IMG/VR virus record: IMGVR_UViG_3300017788_000076
Location: 1-37,022 of that record
Source: a virus
Strand: one strand, 5' to 3'
Length of the DNA: 37,022 nucleotides
Shown: piece by piece, positions 7,718 through 37,022 of the stretch
How positions within the stretch are numbered: position 1 is the first letter of the stretch
Layout: each line of letters opens with the position of its first letter
The notes under the pieces: model-generated
Databases searched by the model: none
What the model was told of the DNA's origin: nothing
The model's input: only the letters and a program-made list of their open reading frames with translations
Translations under genes and position numbers: made by a program

Positions 7718-7719
7718 AA

Positions 7720-7804
7720 TAGGAACGGTCGGGATCGAACCGACAAGGACTTTACGCCCGACAGATTTTAAGTCTGTTGTGTTTACCAGTTTCACCACGC
7801 TCCC
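7720..7804 (-). tRNA. tRNA-Leu (anticodon UAA)
   Basis: The leftward strand folds as a class II tRNA. It has acceptor GGGAGCG with CGTTCCT, an anticodon stem ACAGA/TCTGT enclosing the loop CTTAAAA (anticodon TAA), a long variable arm typical of leucine tRNAs, and a T arm GTCGG-TTCGATC-CCGAC. The discriminator is A and CCA is not encoded. It reads UUA, a codon favoured by an AT-rich phage. Confidence 0.93.
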
Positions 7805-7805
7805 A

Positions 7806-7880
7806 TGGTAGGACCGCCGAGGATCGAACTCGGTTCTGCCGCTTATAAGGCGACGGCTTTAACCAATAAGCAACGGTCCC
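7806..7880 (-). tRNA. tRNA-Ile (anticodon UAU)
   Basis: A cloverleaf is clear: acceptor GGGACCG/CGGTCCT, D arm GCTT...AAGC, anticodon stem GTCGC/GCGGC with loop CTTATAA (anticodon TAT), and T arm CCGAG-TTCGATC-CTCGG. ACCA follows the acceptor, so discriminator A plus CCA is encoded, unlike its neighbour. It would decode AUA directly. Bacteria usually read AUA with a lysidine-modified CAU tRNA, so this gene bypasses that modification. Confidence 0.9.
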
Positions 7881-22981: not shown

Positions 22982-23576
22982 TCGCCTTCTCCGATAATCG
23001 CTCCCGCAAATATTCTTTATACTTACGGGTATCAATATTTAGAAACGGTGCATACTTCTTTAATTTTAGACTGATTGCTTCCCAGATTGGGTCAGTCAAT
23101 TTCTTATCAAGATTATTACCGAACAGGAAAATTTTATCGTAAATTGTAAGGGTTTCGATACTAATGTTCCCGCTCAGGAAATTCTTGAGCACTGGTGGAT
23201 GTTGTCTTGAAGCATCAAATAACTGCTCCAGGTTGTATTCAGACAACAAATCTTCTGTATGTTGCTTGAACTGATAGAATAAACTCTGCTGCCTTCCTTG
23301 CCAGGAAGAATAAACAGTCTCACCTGATCGAATAATCTCACCAATCCATAATGCATCTGGATTGTCACACGCTACAAAGTTAGCAACAAAAAATGCTTTG
23401 ATCTCATCATCATTATACTTCCTTGACATCTTTTCAAAGAAGTATCTGTCCTTTCTTTTATAAAAAGAATTTAAACTTGCTCTAGATTTGCCAGCATATC
23501 TAAAGTAATCATAATTTTTCCTTGTGAAATGCTGTTTGAATGCAAGATACTGTTTATAAGTATCAAACGGGTTCAT
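22974..23576 (-). CDS. 59: gp59-like helicase loader (200 aa)
   Basis: I take ATG at 23576 (MNPFDTYKQYLAFKQHF), because T4 gp59 has the same kind of start; a longer frame would begin with TTG at 23600. The next residues NYDYFRYAGKSRASLNSFYKRKDRYFFEKMS contain the landmarks YDYFRYAGK and FYKRKDRYFF, well conserved in gp59. Length is near T4 gp59 (217 aa). gp59 binds fork DNA and gp32 and loads the gp41 helicase, coordinating leading and lagging strands. It overlaps the radical SAM gene upstream by 14 bases and the DUF1825-like gene downstream by eight. Confidence 0.85.
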   Translation of the reverse strand: MNPFDTYKQYLAFKQHFTRKNYDYFRYAGKSRASLNSFYKRKDRYFFEKMSRKYNDDEIKAFFVANFVACDNPDALWIGEIIRSGETVYSSWQGRQQSLFYQFKQHTEDLLSEYNLEQLFDASRQHPPVLKNFLSGNISIETLTIYDKIFLFGNNLDKKLTDPIWEAISLKLKKYAPFLNIDTRKYKEYLRERLSEKANG

Positions 23577-24594
23577 AATTTTTAGGGTTGAACATTTCAA
23601 CTGTCTTCTTCTGTCCTTTTAATTGTATTTTAGCAGCATATTCAACTTTTGGTCTGCTTGGACACATGTTACAGATCCAACCAGGTTCTATAACTTCTTT
23701 GAATGAACTTCTAAGTGCTTCTTCAGTGTCATTGATGCTAGTTGGTTTATATCCAAGATATTTCTGCCACTCTGGATCTTCTAATTGATCTGTAGCTGCT
23801 AAAGATTCTCTTAGATATGCTACCATAGGACACTTCCACAAATGTCCATTATATAATTGAGAATTTGCACAGGTGCAATGGGTGAAACTAGCAGATGGAT
23901 CTCCATCTTCATATGGATAATATTTTATTGATCCATCTTCATTAAATTTATATTTTACAAGATCAAACCATATTCTTGGAGTATTATCTGGCTGCAAATA
24001 CGCTTCACTTAATTCAAACATATTATCGATATCAACACCACGTTCAATCAGATATTGAGTAAACTCATATCCATTTTCCCAATCTTTCTTACCCACTTGA
24101 GTATATGGTGGACGATGAAAGGTAAGTCTAAAGACAACACCCTTCAACATTTCATCAGCAATCCATTCCTTTTCTTGAAGAAGTCTAGATCCATTGCTGA
24201 ATAGTTTTACATTACATGGTTGTGATCCACGCTCACCATAACAAAGTTCTCTAACAATCCTAGTTACTTCTTTTGTTCTTGGTTCCAATAATGGTTCGCC
24301 ACCAATGATACTGACATGGCTCCAAACCCAAATCTTTGGGAGAATATTTTCTATATCCTCTATTAACTGATCAATGTCTACAGAACTTTTTCCCGAAAGC
24401 AAACTGCTATTATGATTACATCCTCTACATGAAAGATTGCAACCATTCATAGTATGGATACTAAGAAGTCTTGTAGTGGGTCTTTCTTTTTCAAGATCTG
24501 CGATTTGCTCAGCAGTTACTTGTTTAAAATTATCGACCCAAAATCCTTTCAGACTTCTAATGTATTCAACTTTTTCTTTCAGTTCTTTGTCCAT
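23563..24594 (-). CDS. Radical SAM enzyme with C-terminal second cluster region (343 aa), copy 1
   Basis: The radical SAM motif is C52-x3-C56-x2-C59 (GCNLSCRGCNH), followed by IIGGEPLLEPR with GGE at 98-100. The C-terminal part has C240, C242, C255, C308 and C311 within FTHCTCANSQLYNGHLWKCP and WICNMCPSRP. This resembles a SPASM/twitch domain holding a second Fe-S cluster, which is typical of enzymes acting on peptides or sugars. It is a paralogue of the protein at 26537 (same Cys spacing and same QLYNGxLWKCP). It lies between gp33 and gp59 with overlaps on both sides. Substrate unknown. Class B12, QueE or nucleotide-reductase activase seem unlikely, given the length and the extra cysteines. 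Confidence 0.82.
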   Translation of the reverse strand: MDKELKEKVEYIRSLKGFWVDNFKQVTAEQIADLEKERPTTRLLSIHTMNGCNLSCRGCNHNSSLLSGKSSVDIDQLIEDIENILPKIWVWSHVSIIGGEPLLEPRTKEVTRIVRELCYGERGSQPCNVKLFSNGSRLLQEKEWIADEMLKGVVFRLTFHRPPYTQVGKKDWENGYEFTQYLIERGVDIDNMFELSEAYLQPDNTPRIWFDLVKYKFNEDGSIKYYPYEDGDPSASFTHCTCANSQLYNGHLWKCPMVAYLRESLAATDQLEDPEWQKYLGYKPTSINDTEEALRSSFKEVIEPGWICNMCPSRPKVEYAAKIQLKGQKKTVEMFNPKNYEPV

Positions 24595-26533: not shown

Positions 26534-26541
26534 TATTTATT
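26534..26541 (-). promoter_or_regulatory. Possible late promoter (AATAAATA) before the FmdB-like/phoH genes
   Basis: AATAAATA read leftward, one mismatch to the late consensus, 19 bases before the ATG at 26514. It overlaps the stop of the second radical SAM gene. Confidence 0.45.
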
Positions 26542-27343
26542 GGGTGGTGATAATTTTTTTATGGTTGTTGATTTGTAATGCTGCGCTAAACTTCAATGGT
26601 CTAGCAGTACACATGTTACATATTTGTTCTGGTTTACTAGAGTTATCACAGAATTTTACCAGATCTTCATCACTACAGTCAACTGGTAATCCATCACCAA
26701 TAAAAGGTTTCCAACAATCATCCTCTAATTGTTCAGTAACATAAAGAAGTTCCTTTAGAAACGCTGCATTAGGACACTTCCAAAGTCTTCCATTATAAAG
26801 TTGAGTATTCGGACAAGAACACAACTCAAAACTTTGTTTTATATTGTTATGTCCATAAGGATATACTTTACCATTAGATTGTTTGATCGAATTGAACCAA
26901 CGATCTTTTCCATCATGGTGTTCTGTAACAAGAACCTTAGAACTTTTTACCTTATTAATGTTCTCAATAACTTCTGGAGTATGAACACTAATACGTAAAG
27001 ACATGCCAGGATACTTCTCTAAATCTTCCTCAATCCATTGTCGGTTTTCCTCATTGAGAAGAATGCCATTTGTGTACAGATAGACTGTCTCATTGTGCTC
27101 TAGACAGGCGTGTAGGATGTCTCTACACCGTGGATTGAGCAATGGTTCTCCACCAATCACTGAGACACGTTCTACGTCTATCCTAGGCAGGATGGTGTGA
27201 ATATCTTGAATGAGTTTGTCAGTATCTAATTTACTTCCAGGAGCAAAATAATTACTGAAATGATTACATCCCTTGCAACTTAGATTACATCCAATCGTTG
27301 CACTAATATCAAGAATTTTTAATTTTGGGATTGTGGTAAGCAA
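26537..27343 (-). CDS. Radical SAM enzyme with C-terminal second cluster region (268 aa), copy 2
   Basis: C19-x3-C23-x2-C26 (GCNLSCKGCNH) and VIGGEPLLNPR (GGE 64-66) mark the radical SAM core. C175, C177, C190, C242 and C245 (LCSCPNTQLYNGRLWKCP and QICNMCTARP) mark the same auxiliary region as in copy 1, which is about 75 residues longer. No ATG is available before the motif. The start is probably TTG at 27343, which has TAGGAG nine bases upstream, lies inside the end of the carbamoyltransferase N-domain gene and overlaps it by 35 bases. The strong coupling to that gene suggests a shared pathway. Substrate unknown. Confidence 0.8.
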   Translation of the reverse strand: MLTTIPKLKILDISATIGCNLSCKGCNHFSNYFAPGSKLDTDKLIQDIHTILPRIDVERVSVIGGEPLLNPRCRDILHACLEHNETVYLYTNGILLNEENRQWIEEDLEKYPGMSLRISVHTPEVIENINKVKSSKVLVTEHHDGKDRWFNSIKQSNGKVYPYGHNNIKQSFELCSCPNTQLYNGRLWKCPNAAFLKELLYVTEQLEDDCWKPFIGDGLPVDCSDEDLVKFCDNSSKPEQICNMCTARPLKFSAALQINNHKKIITTQ

Positions 27344-28160
27344 GGTAAGCAGCTCCTATGGAAGTTCCACCATCATGTGCAATTGGTTCGGCATATATTT
27401 TTACATCTTCTGGTAACTGTTTACGCAGTTTATAATTTACAACACAGTTCAAGAAACATCCACCAGACAATACAAGGTTCTTACATTTAGTTTTCTTTAG
27501 TGCAAATTGAGCAAGTTCTAATGCACGTTCTTCCCAAAGAGTTTGAACTGTGTATGCAGCATCTTCTTTTGGTTTGAGTGCAAGATTACTTAAATCTACT
27601 CTATTAGATCCATATGATGACAGTCCCATGACTTTGCCAGCATCATCTCGATCAAATCCACAAAACTTAGACACATATTCAAATAATTTTCCCATACCTT
27701 CTTCAGGTGGATCCCAGTATTTTTTATGGATCGTTTTCCACTGAAATCGATTACTATTTTTTGCATGAATAATCGTTTCAATTTCTAGTTTATCCGCAAT
27801 ACTAGATCCATTACTGTCTACAATGATGCACACTGCTTCATCAAATCCAGAACTATAGAATGCTCCTGCAGCATGTGCTAAATGATGAGACTTTCTATAA
27901 TCAACGTGTTTAGCATTAGGAAATGCACGTTTGAACCGTGCAGTATCTCTAGCACTAATCATAGTTTTTTCTGGTGTAGACCATTGAGCATCTACTGTTG
28001 CAATCACATCAACATCAGTCACATAATCTACAAGATCCTTGACAACATAATCAAGTTTTTTTCTTGTAATTCTTTCTGCTTCCAAATAAAAATCTATCTG
28101 CCCATCCTTTAGTAGGCAAATAGATCCGTTATTAGAAAGATTTATTCCTAAAATATTCAT
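27309..28160 (-). CDS. Carbamoyltransferase N-terminal (Kae1-like) domain protein, lacks C-terminal domain (283 aa)
   Basis: The protein matches the N-terminal domain of NodU/CmcH/TobZ-type O-carbamoyltransferases. It starts MNILGINLSNNGSICLLKDG, has the metal-binding HHLAH (92-96) followed by FYSSGFDEAVCIIVDSNGS, GKVMGLSSYG, NLVLSGGCFLNC and a terminal HDGGTSIGAAYLAY. It stops right after this domain, so the C-terminal carbamoyl-adenylate-forming domain (with GRSEAGPRALGNRS in the neighbour) is absent. It shares the ATGA junction with the full-length paralogue at 28157. It might pair with the C-domain of the neighbour or have lost its activity. Confidence 0.83.
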   Translation of the reverse strand: MNILGINLSNNGSICLLKDGQIDFYLEAERITRKKLDYVVKDLVDYVTDVDVIATVDAQWSTPEKTMISARDTARFKRAFPNAKHVDYRKSHHLAHAAGAFYSSGFDEAVCIIVDSNGSSIADKLEIETIIHAKNSNRFQWKTIHKKYWDPPEEGMGKLFEYVSKFCGFDRDDAGKVMGLSSYGSNRVDLSNLALKPKEDAAYTVQTLWEERALELAQFALKKTKCKNLVLSGGCFLNCVVNYKLRKQLPEDVKIYAEPIAHDGGTSIGAAYLAYHNPKIKNS

Positions 28161-29743
28161 TTGGATATAAGTTTTTGAACTTCAGGGAAATAAAGATATT
28201 TGATATCACTATTATAAAAAGTTTTCAAAGCATCTTCTGGTGTTTCTACAAGCGGTTCTCCTGCAAGATTGAATGATGTGTTGAATAAAATAGGCACTCT
28301 TGTTTTTCTATAAAATGCCTCAATCAAATTATAATAATGTTCATTCTGTTCTTTTGTTACAGTTTGAATTCTACAAGTCTTATCAACATGAAGTATTGCT
28401 GGGACTTTATCATATGCATACTCTAAAGCGTCCACAGCATACATCATGAATGGACTTTCTTCCATGCCTGCCATATCAAACCAACCATGTACATATTCCT
28501 TTAGAACTGTGCCTGCAAAAGGTCGGAATGCTTCACGCTTTTTGATTGTGTTGACATGATCTTTCCCGTTAGGATCTCTCGGATCATACAAAATAGATCT
28601 GTTTCCCAGTGCTCTAGGACCAGCTTCAGATCTTCCCTGAAACATTGCAACAATATTCTTCTCAGAAATAAGTCGGGCAACTTCACTATATGAGGTATCT
28701 TTCCCTTCAATGTGAGAAAGGTCATAAGTTGGTCCTAGGTATAATGTTTTCATACTTGTTTTTTTATTAGAAACTAACATTGCAGATCCAAATGCATGTC
28801 CTCCATCATATGACAGGGGATCAGCATATAAATTTATGTCTAAAGATTTTAGCACATTATAGTTAGAAACACAATTCAAAAAGAACCCACCAGAAACTAC
28901 TACATTCTTCTTACCCGAAAGTTCAACTGCTTTTTTGATCATATAGATCGCATGTTTCTCAGCAGATTTTTGAAGATTGTATGCTATATTTTCATTCTTT
29001 ATTTCTTCACCATAATATTTTGTCCATCCAGCATCATCTCTAGGATAAATGTCTTTACTACAAAGACTATGCCCATATTCTTCATTGAAAAGATTGACTG
29101 GACCAAATCCATAAGCAGACAGTCCCATTGTTTTACCTGCTTCAATCTCATCAAACCCACAGTATCCAGAAACACATCTAAATGCTTGACCGATACTAAC
29201 TCTATTGCTGAATAAGTTTGTACCATCCCAGAATGGTTCTCCAAGTTTTTCACATAAAGAACGATTGTAAAAGCAAGAATAATGCTTAAACAATGGAACA
29301 AATTCTCCATTCACATAATTGTAAATGCTTTCTGTCTCACAAAATAATGTTCCGTCTTTACGAAGTACAGATCCTTTACCATCCATGACAAGACAGACAG
29401 CATCATCAAATCCTGATCCATAAAAAGCAGATGCTGCATGACATTCGTGATGATGATTTGAAAAATCTAAAACCTGTTTTACTCCTCTAGATTGAAGAAG
29501 TTGTTTTAGTTTTTTTCTAGCAGCAAGTCTTTCAGAATGTATTTTGAGTGAGTATCTTGTGAAACAATCAGAGTAAACTGCAACATCAATACTGCCATCA
29601 ACAAATTTTTCACATAATGCGTATGCACCAACATCACGTTTCTTTCTAGTAACTCTTTCTTCTTCAAGATAGAATTCTAGTTTCCCATCATTGACAATTG
29701 CAATTGATCCATTCTTTGCAAGATTTATACCAAGAACCTTCAT
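28157..29743 (-). CDS. Full-length O-carbamoyltransferase, NodU/CmcH/TobZ family (528 aa)
   Basis: I use ATG 29743 (ATGA with the thyX stop); the frame also has a GTG two codons earlier. The N-domain starts MKVLGINLAKNGSIAIVNDG, then HHHECH (97-102), FYGSGFDDAVCLVMDGKGS, AGKTMGLSAYG, VVVSGGFFLNC and YDGGHAFGSAM. The C-domain (about 333-528) has GRSEAGPRALGNRSILYDPR, EAFRPFAGTVL and PILFNTSFNLAGEPLV. Both domains look intact, so carbamoyl phosphate plus ATP should give a carbamoyl-adenylate that is passed to a hydroxyl. The acceptor is unknown. In this family it can be a sugar, an antibiotic or, in some phages, a modified DNA base. Confidence 0.88.
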   Translation of the reverse strand: MKVLGINLAKNGSIAIVNDGKLEFYLEEERVTRKKRDVGAYALCEKFVDGSIDVAVYSDCFTRYSLKIHSERLAARKKLKQLLQSRGVKQVLDFSNHHHECHAASAFYGSGFDDAVCLVMDGKGSVLRKDGTLFCETESIYNYVNGEFVPLFKHYSCFYNRSLCEKLGEPFWDGTNLFSNRVSIGQAFRCVSGYCGFDEIEAGKTMGLSAYGFGPVNLFNEEYGHSLCSKDIYPRDDAGWTKYYGEEIKNENIAYNLQKSAEKHAIYMIKKAVELSGKKNVVVSGGFFLNCVSNYNVLKSLDINLYADPLSYDGGHAFGSAMLVSNKKTSMKTLYLGPTYDLSHIEGKDTSYSEVARLISEKNIVAMFQGRSEAGPRALGNRSILYDPRDPNGKDHVNTIKKREAFRPFAGTVLKEYVHGWFDMAGMEESPFMMYAVDALEYAYDKVPAILHVDKTCRIQTVTKEQNEHYYNLIEAFYRKTRVPILFNTSFNLAGEPLVETPEDALKTFYNSDIKYLYFPEVQKLISK

Positions 29744-30375
29744 GCCCACTCAAGTGCTTCAGATACCACAGGAAACTGTTCTACAAACAGTTTCTTACAT
29801 TCGTTTGCAATGTCCATGTGTTCTTTTTGAGTTCCGTTTGCAGAACGAAGATTAATATAATGGATCCAAGAACGCACAGAACCAGACATATAAATGCGCG
29901 TAGGAGTTGCAAGAGGAAGTACAAAACGAGCGCATTCTTTTGCCACACCTTGACGTAGGAGTTCGTTGTATAACTCCATCGCATTTATAAAGTGATTGTT
30001 GATATACATTTGGAGATCTTTTTTAGTCTCCTCTGAGATATCATCAATAGAATTTTGGCGGTTCTTTGTATCCTGACTGCGAAGATCAGGCACAGGAATG
30101 CGATCACTCAAAAGATTTGTATCAGCATAACGTTGTGAAAATTCTTGATATGTGAAACTTCTATGACGTAAGATTTGAGCTGCAATACCACGGTTGGTTT
30201 CGATCTCAAGTGTCATAAACGCTTGCTCAAAAACAGACCAATGATTATGCTTAATGCAATAACGCAATATCCCTGCGTAGTTTTCGCTATCTTGGTTACC
30301 AGGGTTAGACACTCTAGCAACATATGCCATTGTTTGTTCTGCATCTGGCGTAACACTAATCAACTTCACTGTCAT
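29740..30375 (-). CDS. thyX: FAD-dependent thymidylate synthase ThyX (211 aa)
   Basis: The ThyX signature RHRx7S is at R70-H71-R72...S80 (ILRHRSFTYQEFSQRY), preceded by IKHNHWSVFEQAFMTLEIE and followed by GVAKECARFVLPLATPTRIYM and NLRSANGTQKEHMDIA, all typical. ThyX makes dTMP from dUMP with methylenetetrahydrofolate and NADPH via FAD. Start ATG 30375 has AGGA ten bases upstream; a longer frame would begin with TTG. It heads the replication/carbamoyltransferase block with the 60-aa gene, which it overlaps by 20 bases, behind the promoter at 30560. Confidence 0.93.
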   Translation of the reverse strand: MTVKLISVTPDAEQTMAYVARVSNPGNQDSENYAGILRYCIKHNHWSVFEQAFMTLEIETNRGIAAQILRHRSFTYQEFSQRYADTNLLSDRIPVPDLRSQDTKNRQNSIDDISEETKKDLQMYINNHFINAMELYNELLRQGVAKECARFVLPLATPTRIYMSGSVRSWIHYINLRSANGTQKEHMDIANECKKLFVEQFPVVSEALEWA

Positions 30376-32938: not shown

Positions 32939-32967
32939 AGTATAACATTTGTTTATGTTCTTGTCAA
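32939..32967 (-). promoter_or_regulatory. Sigma70-like early promoter TTGACA-17-TATACT
   Basis: The -35 TTGACA (32967-32962) contains the psbA TGA stop. The -10 TATACT (32944-32939) abuts the terminator stem. Transcripts begun here would start inside the ascending arm of the hairpin and so would lack it, while psbA read-through would form it. Confidence 0.65.
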
Positions 32968-34043
32968 CCAATGGCAGGTGCAGTCAGTGCAACAGGAGTT
33001 GCATCCGCAGCAGCAAGATCTAGAGGAAAGTTGTGTGCATTACGTTCATGCATTACTTCCATGCCAAGACCACCACGATTTAGAATATCAGCCCAAGTGT
33101 TAATCACATGACCCTGACTATCTTGGATAGACTGGTTGAAGTTGAAACCATTCAGGTTGAATGCCATGGTGCTAACACCAAGAGCAGTGAACCAAATGCC
33201 TACAACTGGCCAAGCAGCTAAGAAGAAGTGCAGTGAACGAGAGTTATTAAAGGAAGCATATTGGAAAATAAGGCGTCCAAAATAACCGTGAGCAGCAACG
33301 ATGTTATAGGTCTCTTCTTCTTGACCGAACTTGTAACCATAGTTCTGACTTTCGTTCTCAGTGGTTTCACGAACAAGCGATGAGGTTACCAACGAACCGT
33401 GCATTGCACTGAACAGAGAACCACCAAACACACCAGCAACTCCAAGCATGTGGAAAGGATGCATCAGAATGTTATGCTCTGCCTGGAATACAAGCATGTA
33501 GTTGAACGTACCAGAGATACCCAGAGGCATCGCATCAGAGAACGAACCTTGACCGAATGGATAGACCAAGAACACTGCAGAAGCAGCAGCAACAGGTGCT
33601 GAATATGCAACACAGATCCAAGGACGCATACCAAGACGGTAAGAAAGTTCCCACTCACGACCCATATAGGCATAGATGCCGATCAAGAAGTGGAAAACAA
33701 TCAGTTGAAAGGGACCACCGTTATAAAGCCATTCATCTAGACTTGCTGCTTCCCAGATAGGATAGAAGTGAAGTCCGATAGCGTTAGACGATGGAACAAC
33801 AGCACCAGAAATGATGTTGTTTCCGTACATGAGTGAACCTGCAACTGGTTCACGAATACCGTCGATATCGACGGGAGGAGCAGCGATGAAAGCAACGATA
33901 AAGCAGATAGTTGCTGCGAGAAGGGTAGGAATCATTAGCGTTCCGAACCAACCAACATACAAACGATTGTCAGTTGAGGTTACCCATTCACAGAACTCTT
34001 GCCAAGTATTGCTTCCACGCTGCTGAGCGATGGATGCAGTCAT
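32964..34043 (-). CDS. psbA: Photosystem II reaction-centre protein D1 (359 aa)
   Basis: Full-length cyanobacterial-type D1. Counting residues gives E130 (the high-light type; low-light D1 has Gln), Tyr161 (TyrZ), D170, E189, H190, H198, H215, S264, H332, E333, H337, D342 and A344, so all manganese, pheophytin, chlorophyll and quinone-site residues are present. The nine residues after A344 ([13 protein letters not shown] region) would be removed by the CtpA protease. Five membrane helices are evident. During infection the phage copy replaces damaged host D1 and keeps electron transport going. It has an early and a late promoter upstream, a 5' stem-loop, and its own terminator. Confidence 0.98.
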
Positions 34044-34150: not shown

Positions 34151-36070
34151 TCATCCTTTCATTCCTTTGAGTTTTTCGATCCGTTCTGCATCAATTCTTT
34201 TTAAATGAGATGGTTTGTGATCAGACCATATAGCATCGTTGACAGTTAATGTCGTTTCAGACCATAATCTTTTTTGTCTAGCAAGACTATTGATAGTTGG
34301 TGATGTACTTGTATAAGTGTTTCTTTCATTTTCATTTGCAAAAATATTATTCCAATCCATCATTGTTATGTGCTCATGCTTAGCATGAATTTTAGGATTT
34401 AAGTTAGTATACTGTTGAAGTTCTTTTAAAAATTCGTTTCTTCTTTTCCACTGAGAAGTATCTCCTCTTTTCGGATGTTTTCCTTTCCTATTCTTATTTT
34501 TAAGATCAAATTTTAAATCAACTCCAGCTACCTTAGTTGATGGTGGTTTATTGATTACACGAGTTACTTCCATTCCCGAGAATTGTCTAGCTGCATCAAA
34601 AGAATGTTGATCTCTATTGGATCCTACTAACGACCATTCCCACCAAAGATCACAAAATTTATTAAAAATTTTATCTGACTTGATTGTTCTCCAAAGCATC
34701 GTACAGCATGGACTAATATATTGCTTGAAATTATATCCAGATTCTGCTAATTTTTTTGTCAGTTCTACTCCTTGTTCATATGAAAAAAATGAACATAAAA
34801 ATCCTTCTAACATTTCATCGTAATAATTAAACTCATAGCAATGCTCTAATGTAGTTACTCCTTTTGTAGGAAATACTTTTCTTGAGTATTCAACAAATTC
34901 TTTTGTTTGAATGTAACAAGCGTCTATCCATACAGTATTGTCACCTGGATTGAATAGTTTATGTGGATTAATTTTTGGAAACGCAGATAATCTTCTAGGG
35001 CACTCTATATTACAATAGTCTCTAACATCAATATATTCCCACGGTCCTTTTGTAGTATCAATTGTACCATCATGAAACATAACATATCTTACATTTGGAT
35101 CGTAGTAATTCTCTTCTGGAATGTTATCATAATTATTTGTAATACAACTATAAATGATGAACGGTTTATCATCAAACTTTTTCAGTAATTTTTGATGCCT
35201 TTTATATGTTATCTCCTTATATTTTGTTGATGGTATATCACTGAATATTTTATGATTGATCATCTGATTGTAAATATCTCCATATCCAAGCGTTTTCAAA
35301 TATAACAAACGAGATAAATCAATTTTTGTTTTACAATCTATTTTCGATGAAATTGAAAGTCTTTCAAGAAATGCTTTCCAATTCAATTCGTTTTTCCCAT
35401 CAGAATAATTACCAGATCCACCTAGTAAATTATTCCACCAACCCTTATAAAAAGTAAATTTAGATATTGTTTTTGCTGGATGTTCTCTATTGTAATCTAT
35501 ATTTGATAACTTTAACGAAACAGAACCAGATAATTGATCTCTAGGATTGCATTTATCATATAGTTTCCACCAAAGAGTTGACCATTTGATTATATCTTCA
35601 GTTGGGGTTCTCCATAGAATACATGCAAAAATTGTTTCATGATTTAAAAAATCATATTGAAGTTTTTCTAGATCTTTTGTTTGATTAATTATTTTATCTT
35701 CCTTAACCCAAGATCTAATGTAATATTCTAAACACTCTTCAAAATAATTATGTTGCTCAGGATGCTCTAAAATAAAAAGTTTTTTATTTTTTAAAATTTT
35801 TTCAGATAAATTAAAAAATTGTTGATTATTGATCAAATGCAGACGAGAAGCATCAACATAAACGCAAGGTTCATCAAAATATTCATGGAACATAATCTTA
35901 GGATGCCTTGATAATACAACAGGATCCTCGTGTTTGTATTTGATGTCTCTCAATTCCCAAGGAGATTTTGGTTCAACAGTTCCATCATGAAAACAGATAT
36001 ATTGATGTCCAAGATCTTCGATCTCAGGAAGTTCACAATAGTTATTTGTAATAGAGGTATAAATGATCAT
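34151..36070 (-). CDS. Two-domain DUF616-like glycosyltransferase candidate (639 aa)
   Basis: Two related domains follow one another. Domain 1 (1 to about 295) starts MIIYTSITNNYCELPE and has YICFHDGTVEPKSPWELRD, LSRHPKIMFHEYF and CVYVDASRLH. Domain 2 (about 302-530) has FIIYSCITNNYDNIPEENYY, YVMFHDGTIDTTKGPWEYID, CPRRLSAFPKINPHKLF, TVWIDACYIQTKEFV and SNRDQHSFDAARQFSGM. The pattern (YTxITNxYDxxP, FxDG, PRRxSxxPKxxPH, xWIDG) is what I remember of DUF616 (TOD1/MUCI70-like), a GT-A-like glycosyltransferase family. The last ~110 residues are basic. It forms an ATGA junction with its upstream paralogue. Donor and acceptor are unknown. Confidence 0.68.
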   Translation of the reverse strand: MIIYTSITNNYCELPEIEDLGHQYICFHDGTVEPKSPWELRDIKYKHEDPVVLSRHPKIMFHEYFDEPCVYVDASRLHLINNQQFFNLSEKILKNKKLFILEHPEQHNYFEECLEYYIRSWVKEDKIINQTKDLEKLQYDFLNHETIFACILWRTPTEDIIKWSTLWWKLYDKCNPRDQLSGSVSLKLSNIDYNREHPAKTISKFTFYKGWWNNLLGGSGNYSDGKNELNWKAFLERLSISSKIDCKTKIDLSRLLYLKTLGYGDIYNQMINHKIFSDIPSTKYKEITYKRHQKLLKKFDDKPFIIYSCITNNYDNIPEENYYDPNVRYVMFHDGTIDTTKGPWEYIDVRDYCNIECPRRLSAFPKINPHKLFNPGDNTVWIDACYIQTKEFVEYSRKVFPTKGVTTLEHCYEFNYYDEMLEGFLCSFFSYEQGVELTKKLAESGYNFKQYISPCCTMLWRTIKSDKIFNKFCDLWWEWSLVGSNRDQHSFDAARQFSGMEVTRVINKPPSTKVAGVDLKFDLKNKNRKGKHPKRGDTSQWKRRNEFLKELQQYTNLNPKIHAKHEHITMMDWNNIFANENERNTYTSTSPTINSLARQKRLWSETTLTVNDAIWSDHKPSHLKRIDAERIEKLKGMKG

Positions 36071-37022
36071 TGTATTCCGTAAACTCCCATATAAAATCCA
36101 TGATCGGTATAGTTAGTATATATTTTAGTACTTAGACCAACAATTTTACTAAGCTCATATAAGAATTCATCTTTTCTTTCATGCTGCTTTTTGTCTCCAT
36201 ATTGAGGATGCATTCCACGTCTACCTTTTTTATTGAAAAACCCTAAAGGAACTCCACTATCGTTTCTATTTTCAAATACTGAAGGGTTACATTCACTAAA
36301 TTGTAAAGCAGCATCAAATGAAATTTGATCTCTATTAGGACCAATTAGAGAATACTTATACCAGAGTTCATTAAATTTAATTGTTTCATCATTAATAGTT
36401 CTCCATACAATTGTTCCTAAAGGACTAGAATATTTTCTAAAATCATATCCGTCTTCTTTCAATTTCTTTGATAATTCTAATGCATCATCGTATGTAAAGA
36501 ATGCACATAGAAATCCTTCAAGCATTTCGTCATAGTAAGAAAATTTAGATGCATGTCTCAACATTGTAAATGGAAAACACCGTAGACTATTTTCTACAAA
36601 TTCTCTAGTGTGAACATAGCAACCATCAATCCATACAGTATGAGTTCCTTTTGGAAAGAATAAATGAGGATTTGCTTTTGGATAAAAAGATAATCTTCTT
36701 GGGCATTTTATATCACAATATTTTCTAATATCGATATATTCCCACGGACCTTTTGTAGTATCAATTGTTCCGTCGTGAAAACAAACATATCTAACATTTA
36801 TATCATAATAATTTTCATCTGGAAATACATCATATCCATTGGTAATACAGGTAAATATCACTAACTGCTTTTTTTCAATAGGATTTACCTCAGATACGAA
36901 TATTCTATATCTGTTAAGTTCTGATTGATCTAATATTTTTTCTGATCTGATTTTAAGTTTGGAAGATACTCCAAATATCCTACAAAGATTTTTCTTAAAA
37001 CTGTTAAATTCAAAAATTTTTG
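36067..37022 (-). CDS. DUF616-like glycosyltransferase candidate, 5' end outside window
   Basis: The frame is open from the TGA at 36067 to the right edge (318 codons). A GTG at 36861 could serve as a start, but the frame continues upstream without a stop and reads FKKNLCRIFGVSSKLKIRSE before VIFTCITNGYD. That resembles the linker before domain 2 of the neighbour (FLERLSISSKID), so the gene is probably also two-domain. The visible domain has VRYVCFHDGTIDTTKGPWEY, CPRRLSFYPKANPHLFF, HTVWIDGCYVHTREFV and PNRDQISFDAALQFSE, then a basic end with RRGMHPQYGD. Its DNA is very similar to the domain 2 region of the neighbour. Function as for the neighbour. Confidence 0.68.
   Translation of the reverse strand, partial: KIFEFNSFKKNLCRIFGVSSKLKIRSEKILDQSELNRYRIFVSEVNPIEKKQLVIFTCITNGYDVFPDENYYDINVRYVCFHDGTIDTTKGPWEYIDIRKYCDIKCPRRLSFYPKANPHLFFPKGTHTVWIDGCYVHTREFVENSLRCFPFTMLRHASKFSYYDEMLEGFLCAFFTYDDALELSKKLKEDGYDFRKYSSPLGTIVWRTINDETIKFNELWYKYSLIGPNRDQISFDAALQFSECNPSVFENRNDSGVPLGFFNKKGRRGMHPQYGDKKQHERKDEFLYELSKIVGLSTKIYTNYTDHGFYMGVYGIQ

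Follow-up and report, generated by a model that had tools for sequence, protein, structure and literature searches.

Tandem DUF616-like glycosyltransferase domains at the end of a cyanobacterial virus glycan cassette: a candidate assembly line with recombining N-terminal segments

Introduction

Large clusters of lipopolysaccharide (LPS) or cell-wall genes have been reported in T4-like cyanophages (PMC3037559, PMC9602691). They have been proposed either to alter the host surface or to serve as stuffer DNA (PMC2984593, PMC3037559), and which of the two applies, working genes or stuffer, has been left open (PMC3037559). The chlorovirus PBCV-1 builds its capsid glycan with multi-domain glycosyltransferases of its own, A064R (638 aa) and A111/114R (860 aa); A064R consists of two glycosyltransferase (GT) domains and a methyltransferase, and the activity of each of its domains has been shown (PMC9614988). 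Cyanophage glycan clusters are thus already known, as are DUF616 proteins in other viruses. The literature that we searched contained no tandem multi-domain DUF616 array fixed between a glycan cluster and psbA.

Here we analyse such an array in 37,022 nucleotides from an uncultured ocean cyanobacterial virus (hereafter the window; IMG/VR record IMGVR_UViG_3300017788_000076, positions 1 to 37,022), in which an earlier note had pointed to adjoining DUF616-like genes. Our preferred reading, to which we give roughly an even chance (probability about 0.5), is that a tandem array of GT-A fold DUF616-like domains stands at the end of a glycan operon and would act as an assembly line on a phage (virion) protein, its N-terminal segments recombining with one another.

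Results

Gene 1 of the pair (36067-37020, minus strand) encodes a DUF616-like glycosyltransferase whose reading frame is open at the window end, so that its 5' end is cut off; its orthologues in related contigs are 540-850 aa long and contain two or three domains. Gene 2 (34151-36070, minus strand) encodes a two-domain DUF616-like glycosyltransferase of 639 aa with an orthologue in MH319720 (55.5% over 99%). Sequence and ORF coordinates place an ATGA stop/start overlap between the two genes (36067-36070, minus strand), which makes translational coupling likely. Downstream lies psbA (32964-34043, minus strand; phrog_182 photosystem II D1, E 7.9e-201), a conserved neighbour that is outside the glycan pathway.

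The earlier note had proposed at least three related domains in the two adjoining genes, and the family profile bears this out, locating all three on the minus strand: domain A, the last of gene 1 (36070-36864), which was also modelled with AlphaFold2; domain B, the first of gene 2 (35246-36070, E 1.2e-92), which forms its own clade in the domain tree with a support of 100; and domain C, the second of gene 2 (34304-35161, E 2.8e-118), which is 56% identical to A. Compared with the window, the gene 1 protein gives three matches, to itself, to C (56%, E 1.6e-96) and to B (34%, E 2e-25), a similarity among domains that at these E values is far beyond chance. The rest of gene 1 (36865-37020, minus strand) is the tail of a preceding, first GT domain whose remainder lies beyond the window. 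Because these ~50 residues before domain A match the first-domain tail of relatives (72% identity over 61 residues to contig L006, 67% to L005), the array across both genes probably comprises four domains once the cut gene is completed, and the total of four that had been suggested is likely right. The architecture varies among relatives, with 3+2, 2+2, 2+1+1, 2+1+1+1 or 2+1 domains per gene.

Assignment of the domains to the DUF616 family rests on several comparisons. Weak matches to PF04765 (TOD1_MUCI70, formerly DUF616) are found for 25 of 71 phage family members (best E 5e-5), and domain A scores 11.8 bits, below the curated cut-off of 21.4. The HMM of the phage domains finds bacterial members with E values down to 3e-32, and four bacterial relatives exceed the PF04765 cut-off; homology to accepted members is thus seen in sequence, through these bacterial relatives, and in fold, through Foldseek matches to viral DUF616 proteins. 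The phage domains are therefore a divergent relative of PF04765 and not a member by Pfam's rule. Gene 2 also matches phrog_26101 'glycosyltransferase' (2.8e-7), as do 27 of the 71 family members.

The fold was evaluated on an AlphaFold2 model of domain A (pLDDT 96.3, pTM 0.92), built from an alignment of 66 domains from the window and the fetched related loci, with the MH319720 rows left out. Compared with solved structures, the model matches 311 chains at Z 8 or more, best among them the GT6 enzyme 1g8o (Z 11.7; 190 residues, 3.4 Å) and, for GT8, LARGE1 (Z 11.5), as expected of a GT-A fold, and we assign domain A to the GT-A fold glycosyltransferases on the strength of this model. Searching the sequences of solved structures with profile A1 yielded nothing beyond chance matches to epsin (E 0.11). 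Among viral models the best Foldseek match is a Tetraselmis virus 1 DUF616 protein (E 8e-12), and matches to a Cellulophaga phage phi18:2 glycosyltransferase (E 8e-11) and an Indivirus TOD1/MUCI70 protein (E 2e-9) were also obtained. For gene 2 the full-length model is no more than fair (pLDDT 78, pTM 0.55), and we draw nothing from how B and C are placed relative to each other in it; its residues 302-527, mainly domain C, match LARGE1 with Z 11.1. Taken with the weak PF04765 matches and the bacterial relatives above the cut-off, the GT-A model supports the earlier description of these proteins as DUF616-like glycosyltransferases.

Across 363 domains, D80 and H104 are invariant (363/363), and R155, W168, R178 and D179 almost invariant. 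Of the canonical metal-binding DxD only D-(G/A)-(C/S) is left, with the invariant D80 as its first Asp and Cys or Ser at its third position. Judged by this conservation the phage domains would be catalytic even though only one Asp of the DxD is kept; the structural matches of domain A include a metal-independent GT6 enzyme, 4ayj. A separate observation concerns the three-domain gene 1 of contigs L004-L007, whose middle domain carries N9 to E/D, E113 to Q and Q180 to V/P substitutions and may be non-catalytic or altered.

These genes had been thought unusual in phages, which holds for sequenced phages: only one of 50,697 phage records carries genes of the pair, that record being a single-cell genome, and searching phage DNA with the 3-kb region gave no match. 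A profile scan of IMG/VR, however, finds 269 stretches encoding relatives, and DUF616 proteins occur in other viruses.

The surroundings of the pair were read from 98 related loci, with second loci on one contig excluded; 89 of the 98 have upstream sequence. A gene for a 2OG-Fe(II) oxygenase lies directly upstream of the pair in 85 of these 89, and further upstream, in fixed order as far as the contigs reach, come GT25, GT2_2-like, GT11, GT2, a protein that we take to be FkbM-like (Pfam gave no match), GT10 and DUF5672. A 172-kb contig extends the cassette with an exostosin/RXYLT1-like gene (RXYLT1 was matched with the L012 copy, below its cut-off), GT17, an NAD-dependent epimerase, a DegT aminotransferase, a GDP-mannose-dehydratase-family protein and a mannose-phosphate isomerase. 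The relatives thus have what marks the glycan/LPS clusters of T4-like cyanophages, glycosyltransferase genes next to nucleotide-sugar genes. Downstream, 42 loci have psbA, among them every one of the 23 with 1.5 kb of sequence or more. By gene content the DUF616 pair forms the end of a predicted phage glycan-synthesis cassette in the relatives; the window goes no further than the GT pair.

Since the 98 loci had been found through GT genes, we also searched with GT25. Every close cassette with enough sequence (26 of 26, at 93% or more) carries DUF616 genes and no divergent cassette (0 of 20, at 47-58%) does; two of the divergent ones run from GT25 through a few small genes to psbA, without DUF616 genes. 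The genes therefore characterise a lineage, in which they are stably kept. The earlier idea that the pair next to psbA is a hot spot for gain and loss does not fit this near-constant position and neighbourhood and is rejected within the lineage, where what varies is how many domains there are and how the genes are fused.

Several features of the window and its relatives were recorded alongside. A DNA methyltransferase-like gene with a TSPPY motif is inserted inside the glycan cassette of one relative (L105:2528-3454), and in some relatives psbA is followed by a second psbA-like gene (~31% identity; L040:10181-11317, L111:12816-13889), probably psbD; no such gene was seen in the window. Two neighbouring genes of the carbamoyltransferase family (Pfam Carbam_trans_N/C) occupy 27309-29749 of the window; that at 27309-28160 is short, and their order is kept in relatives. 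One relative (L027) has a further carbamoyltransferase directly before its DUF616 genes. Two related radical SAM proteins (23563-24594 and 26537-27343) flank PhoH and an exonuclease-like gene, and the second adjoins the carbamoyltransferases, which may constitute a separate modification pathway. Adjacent tRNA-Leu(taa) and tRNA-Ile(tat) genes lie at 7719-7880 on the minus strand.

The strongest competitor to a phage-protein target is the host surface. On this account the cassette would attach its glycan to LPS, or to some other glycan of the envelope, in the infected cyanobacterium, with the DUF616 genes adding outer sugars, and the modified envelope would, for example, block superinfection. 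The literature reads such cyanophage clusters in just this way, as LPS or cell-wall genes (PMC9602691, PMC2984593, PMC3037559), and the Pfam description of GT25 as an LPS biosynthesis family and the nucleotide-sugar genes of the cassette agree with it. Set against these points, the flippase, polymerase (Wzy_C) and lipid-carrier transferase families (PF02397, PF00953, PF01943, PF13440, PF04932) were not found in three phage contigs of up to 172 kb, and each of them was detected in control bacterial genomes. The three contigs may be incomplete and a phage could use the carriers of its host, so the missing export genes are weak evidence, mildly favouring glycosylation of a phage protein over LPS. 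LPS synthesis also gives no obvious reason why 85 of 89 loci should have a 2OG oxygenase in the midst of their GT genes; the oxygenase could have another substrate, such enzymes being common in cyanophages. Overall, gene content suggests a modest lead for a virion protein as the acceptor, and the host surface seems to us a plausible target but a doubtful one.

That the enzymes glycosylate phage DNA, as the glucosyltransferases of T4 do, is very improbable. One cyanophage gene adjoining a GT11 is annotated 'DNA beta-glucosyltransferase', but according to a review there is no evidence that cyanomyovirus DNA is modified or glycosylated (PMC2984593), which makes the earlier suggestion of decorated DNA unlikely. 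The neighbouring genes, which supply several nucleotide sugars and among which two families of fucosyltransferase are represented, suggest a complex glycan.

A last alternative concerns the age of the array. The DNA of A and C had been described as nearly identical in long stretches at an offset of 1703 bases, and the copy as recent. The offset is recovered by a repeat search (34961-35175 against 36664-36878, 77% identity over 215 nt), and a patch of elevated identity at residues 27-62 points in the same direction, but A and C share no exact DNA match longer than 20 nt. The two proteins are ~56% identical and their identical residues use the same codon in 61% of cases, versus the 58% that codon usage in these genes predicts, which puts synonymous codons close to saturation. 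Domain A has 93% identity with its L005 orthologue as against 56% with C, and in the domain tree, whose clades are position-specific, A groups with the final gene 1 domain of other phages, B with the first and C with the second domain of gene 2. The domain classes are thus orthologues across many phages, and the duplications precede phage divergence. That A and C are a fresh tandem copy is scarcely credible given the tree, the codon saturation and the short exact matches, and was rejected; the array is old, and only the patch is recent.

The patch covers the first ~60 residues of domain A (36685-36864, minus strand) and of its partner C (34982-35161, minus strand), where a permutation test detects excess similarity within genomes. 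At residues 1-60, A-C pairs from the same genome share codons at 0.629 versus 0.570 for shuffled pairs (p 0.00075, 15 phages), a small effect that persists without the window (p 0.0006), is weaker at residues 61-150 and is absent at residues 151-265. Codon usage peculiar to each genome is unlikely to be the cause, since no such excess is seen in the C-terminal part, and the patch looks like recent local recombination. The window's own A-C patch ranks first among all possible partners (82% at residues 27-62), which explains why the copy had appeared recent.

A second kind of exchange is suggested by the close relatives L005-L007, in which gene 1 has three domains. The window tracks their path from domain 1 to domain 2 up to FTCITN (36841-36864, minus strand) and from there the path of domain 3; in 30-base steps its identity to L005 is 0.67-0.87 on the first path and then mostly 0.90-1.0 on the second. 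We infer from this switch an in-frame crossover at FTCITN by which the window lost the middle domain, the direction, loss as opposed to gain, being itself part of that inference.

Discussion

Our analysis suggests that recombination between conserved N-terminal segments may reshape an old DUF616 array in two ways, by short conversion patches and by the addition or removal of whole domains. The locus shows tandem domains varying by recombination inside a stable locus. That separate domain classes are conserved suggests separate sugars, and by analogy with A064R each class would transfer its own, so that the genes would together form an assembly line extending one glycan. With less certainty, soluble enzymes in the infected cyanobacterium would build this glycan on a phage (virion) protein and not on the host LPS.

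Stuffer DNA is hard to square with an order of genes that 85 of 89 contigs share and with catalytic residues retained in 363 domains, and both suggest that the cassette is a working pathway. The cassette also provides a defined gene set for asking where the sugars end up, on the phage particle or on the host surface. A more specific version of the phage-protein reading, which we regard as unlikely when taken as a whole, is that marine cyanomyoviruses encode an autonomous soluble pathway that places a complex, fucose-containing glycan on a hydroxylated virion protein, with the recombining DUF616 assembly line varying the outer sugars. If true, this would be a bacteriophage counterpart of chlorovirus capsid glycosylation.

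Compared with known systems, the phage domains share with the bacterial members of PF04765 the ITNxYD, (W/Y)xDx and RDQ motifs and the GT-A fold, but differ in their low Pfam scores and in forming tandem arrays of 3-5 domains in 2-4 genes. With GT6, which includes bovine alpha-1,3-galactosyltransferase and the blood group enzymes, and with LARGE1, domain A has the GT-A fold in common over 178-190 residues; sequence identity is about 10%, and the phage domain lacks the second Asp of the DxD. The Cellulophaga phage phi18:2, Tetraselmis virus and Indivirus proteins are structurally similar to domain A. At the level of gene content, the LPS/cell-wall clusters of the T4-like cyanophages P-SSM2, S-SM2, S-SSM7 and S-SCSM1 have a GT11-GT25 pair and nucleotide-sugar genes like the cassette of the relatives, but that of S-SM2 ends with GT11-GT25, lacks DUF616 genes and lies ~17 kb from psbA. 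In architecture, the array may be likened to PBCV-1 A064R and A111/114R, which are also virus-encoded multi-domain glycosyltransferases; A064R joins two different GT domains to a methyltransferase, whereas the phage array is made of one family.
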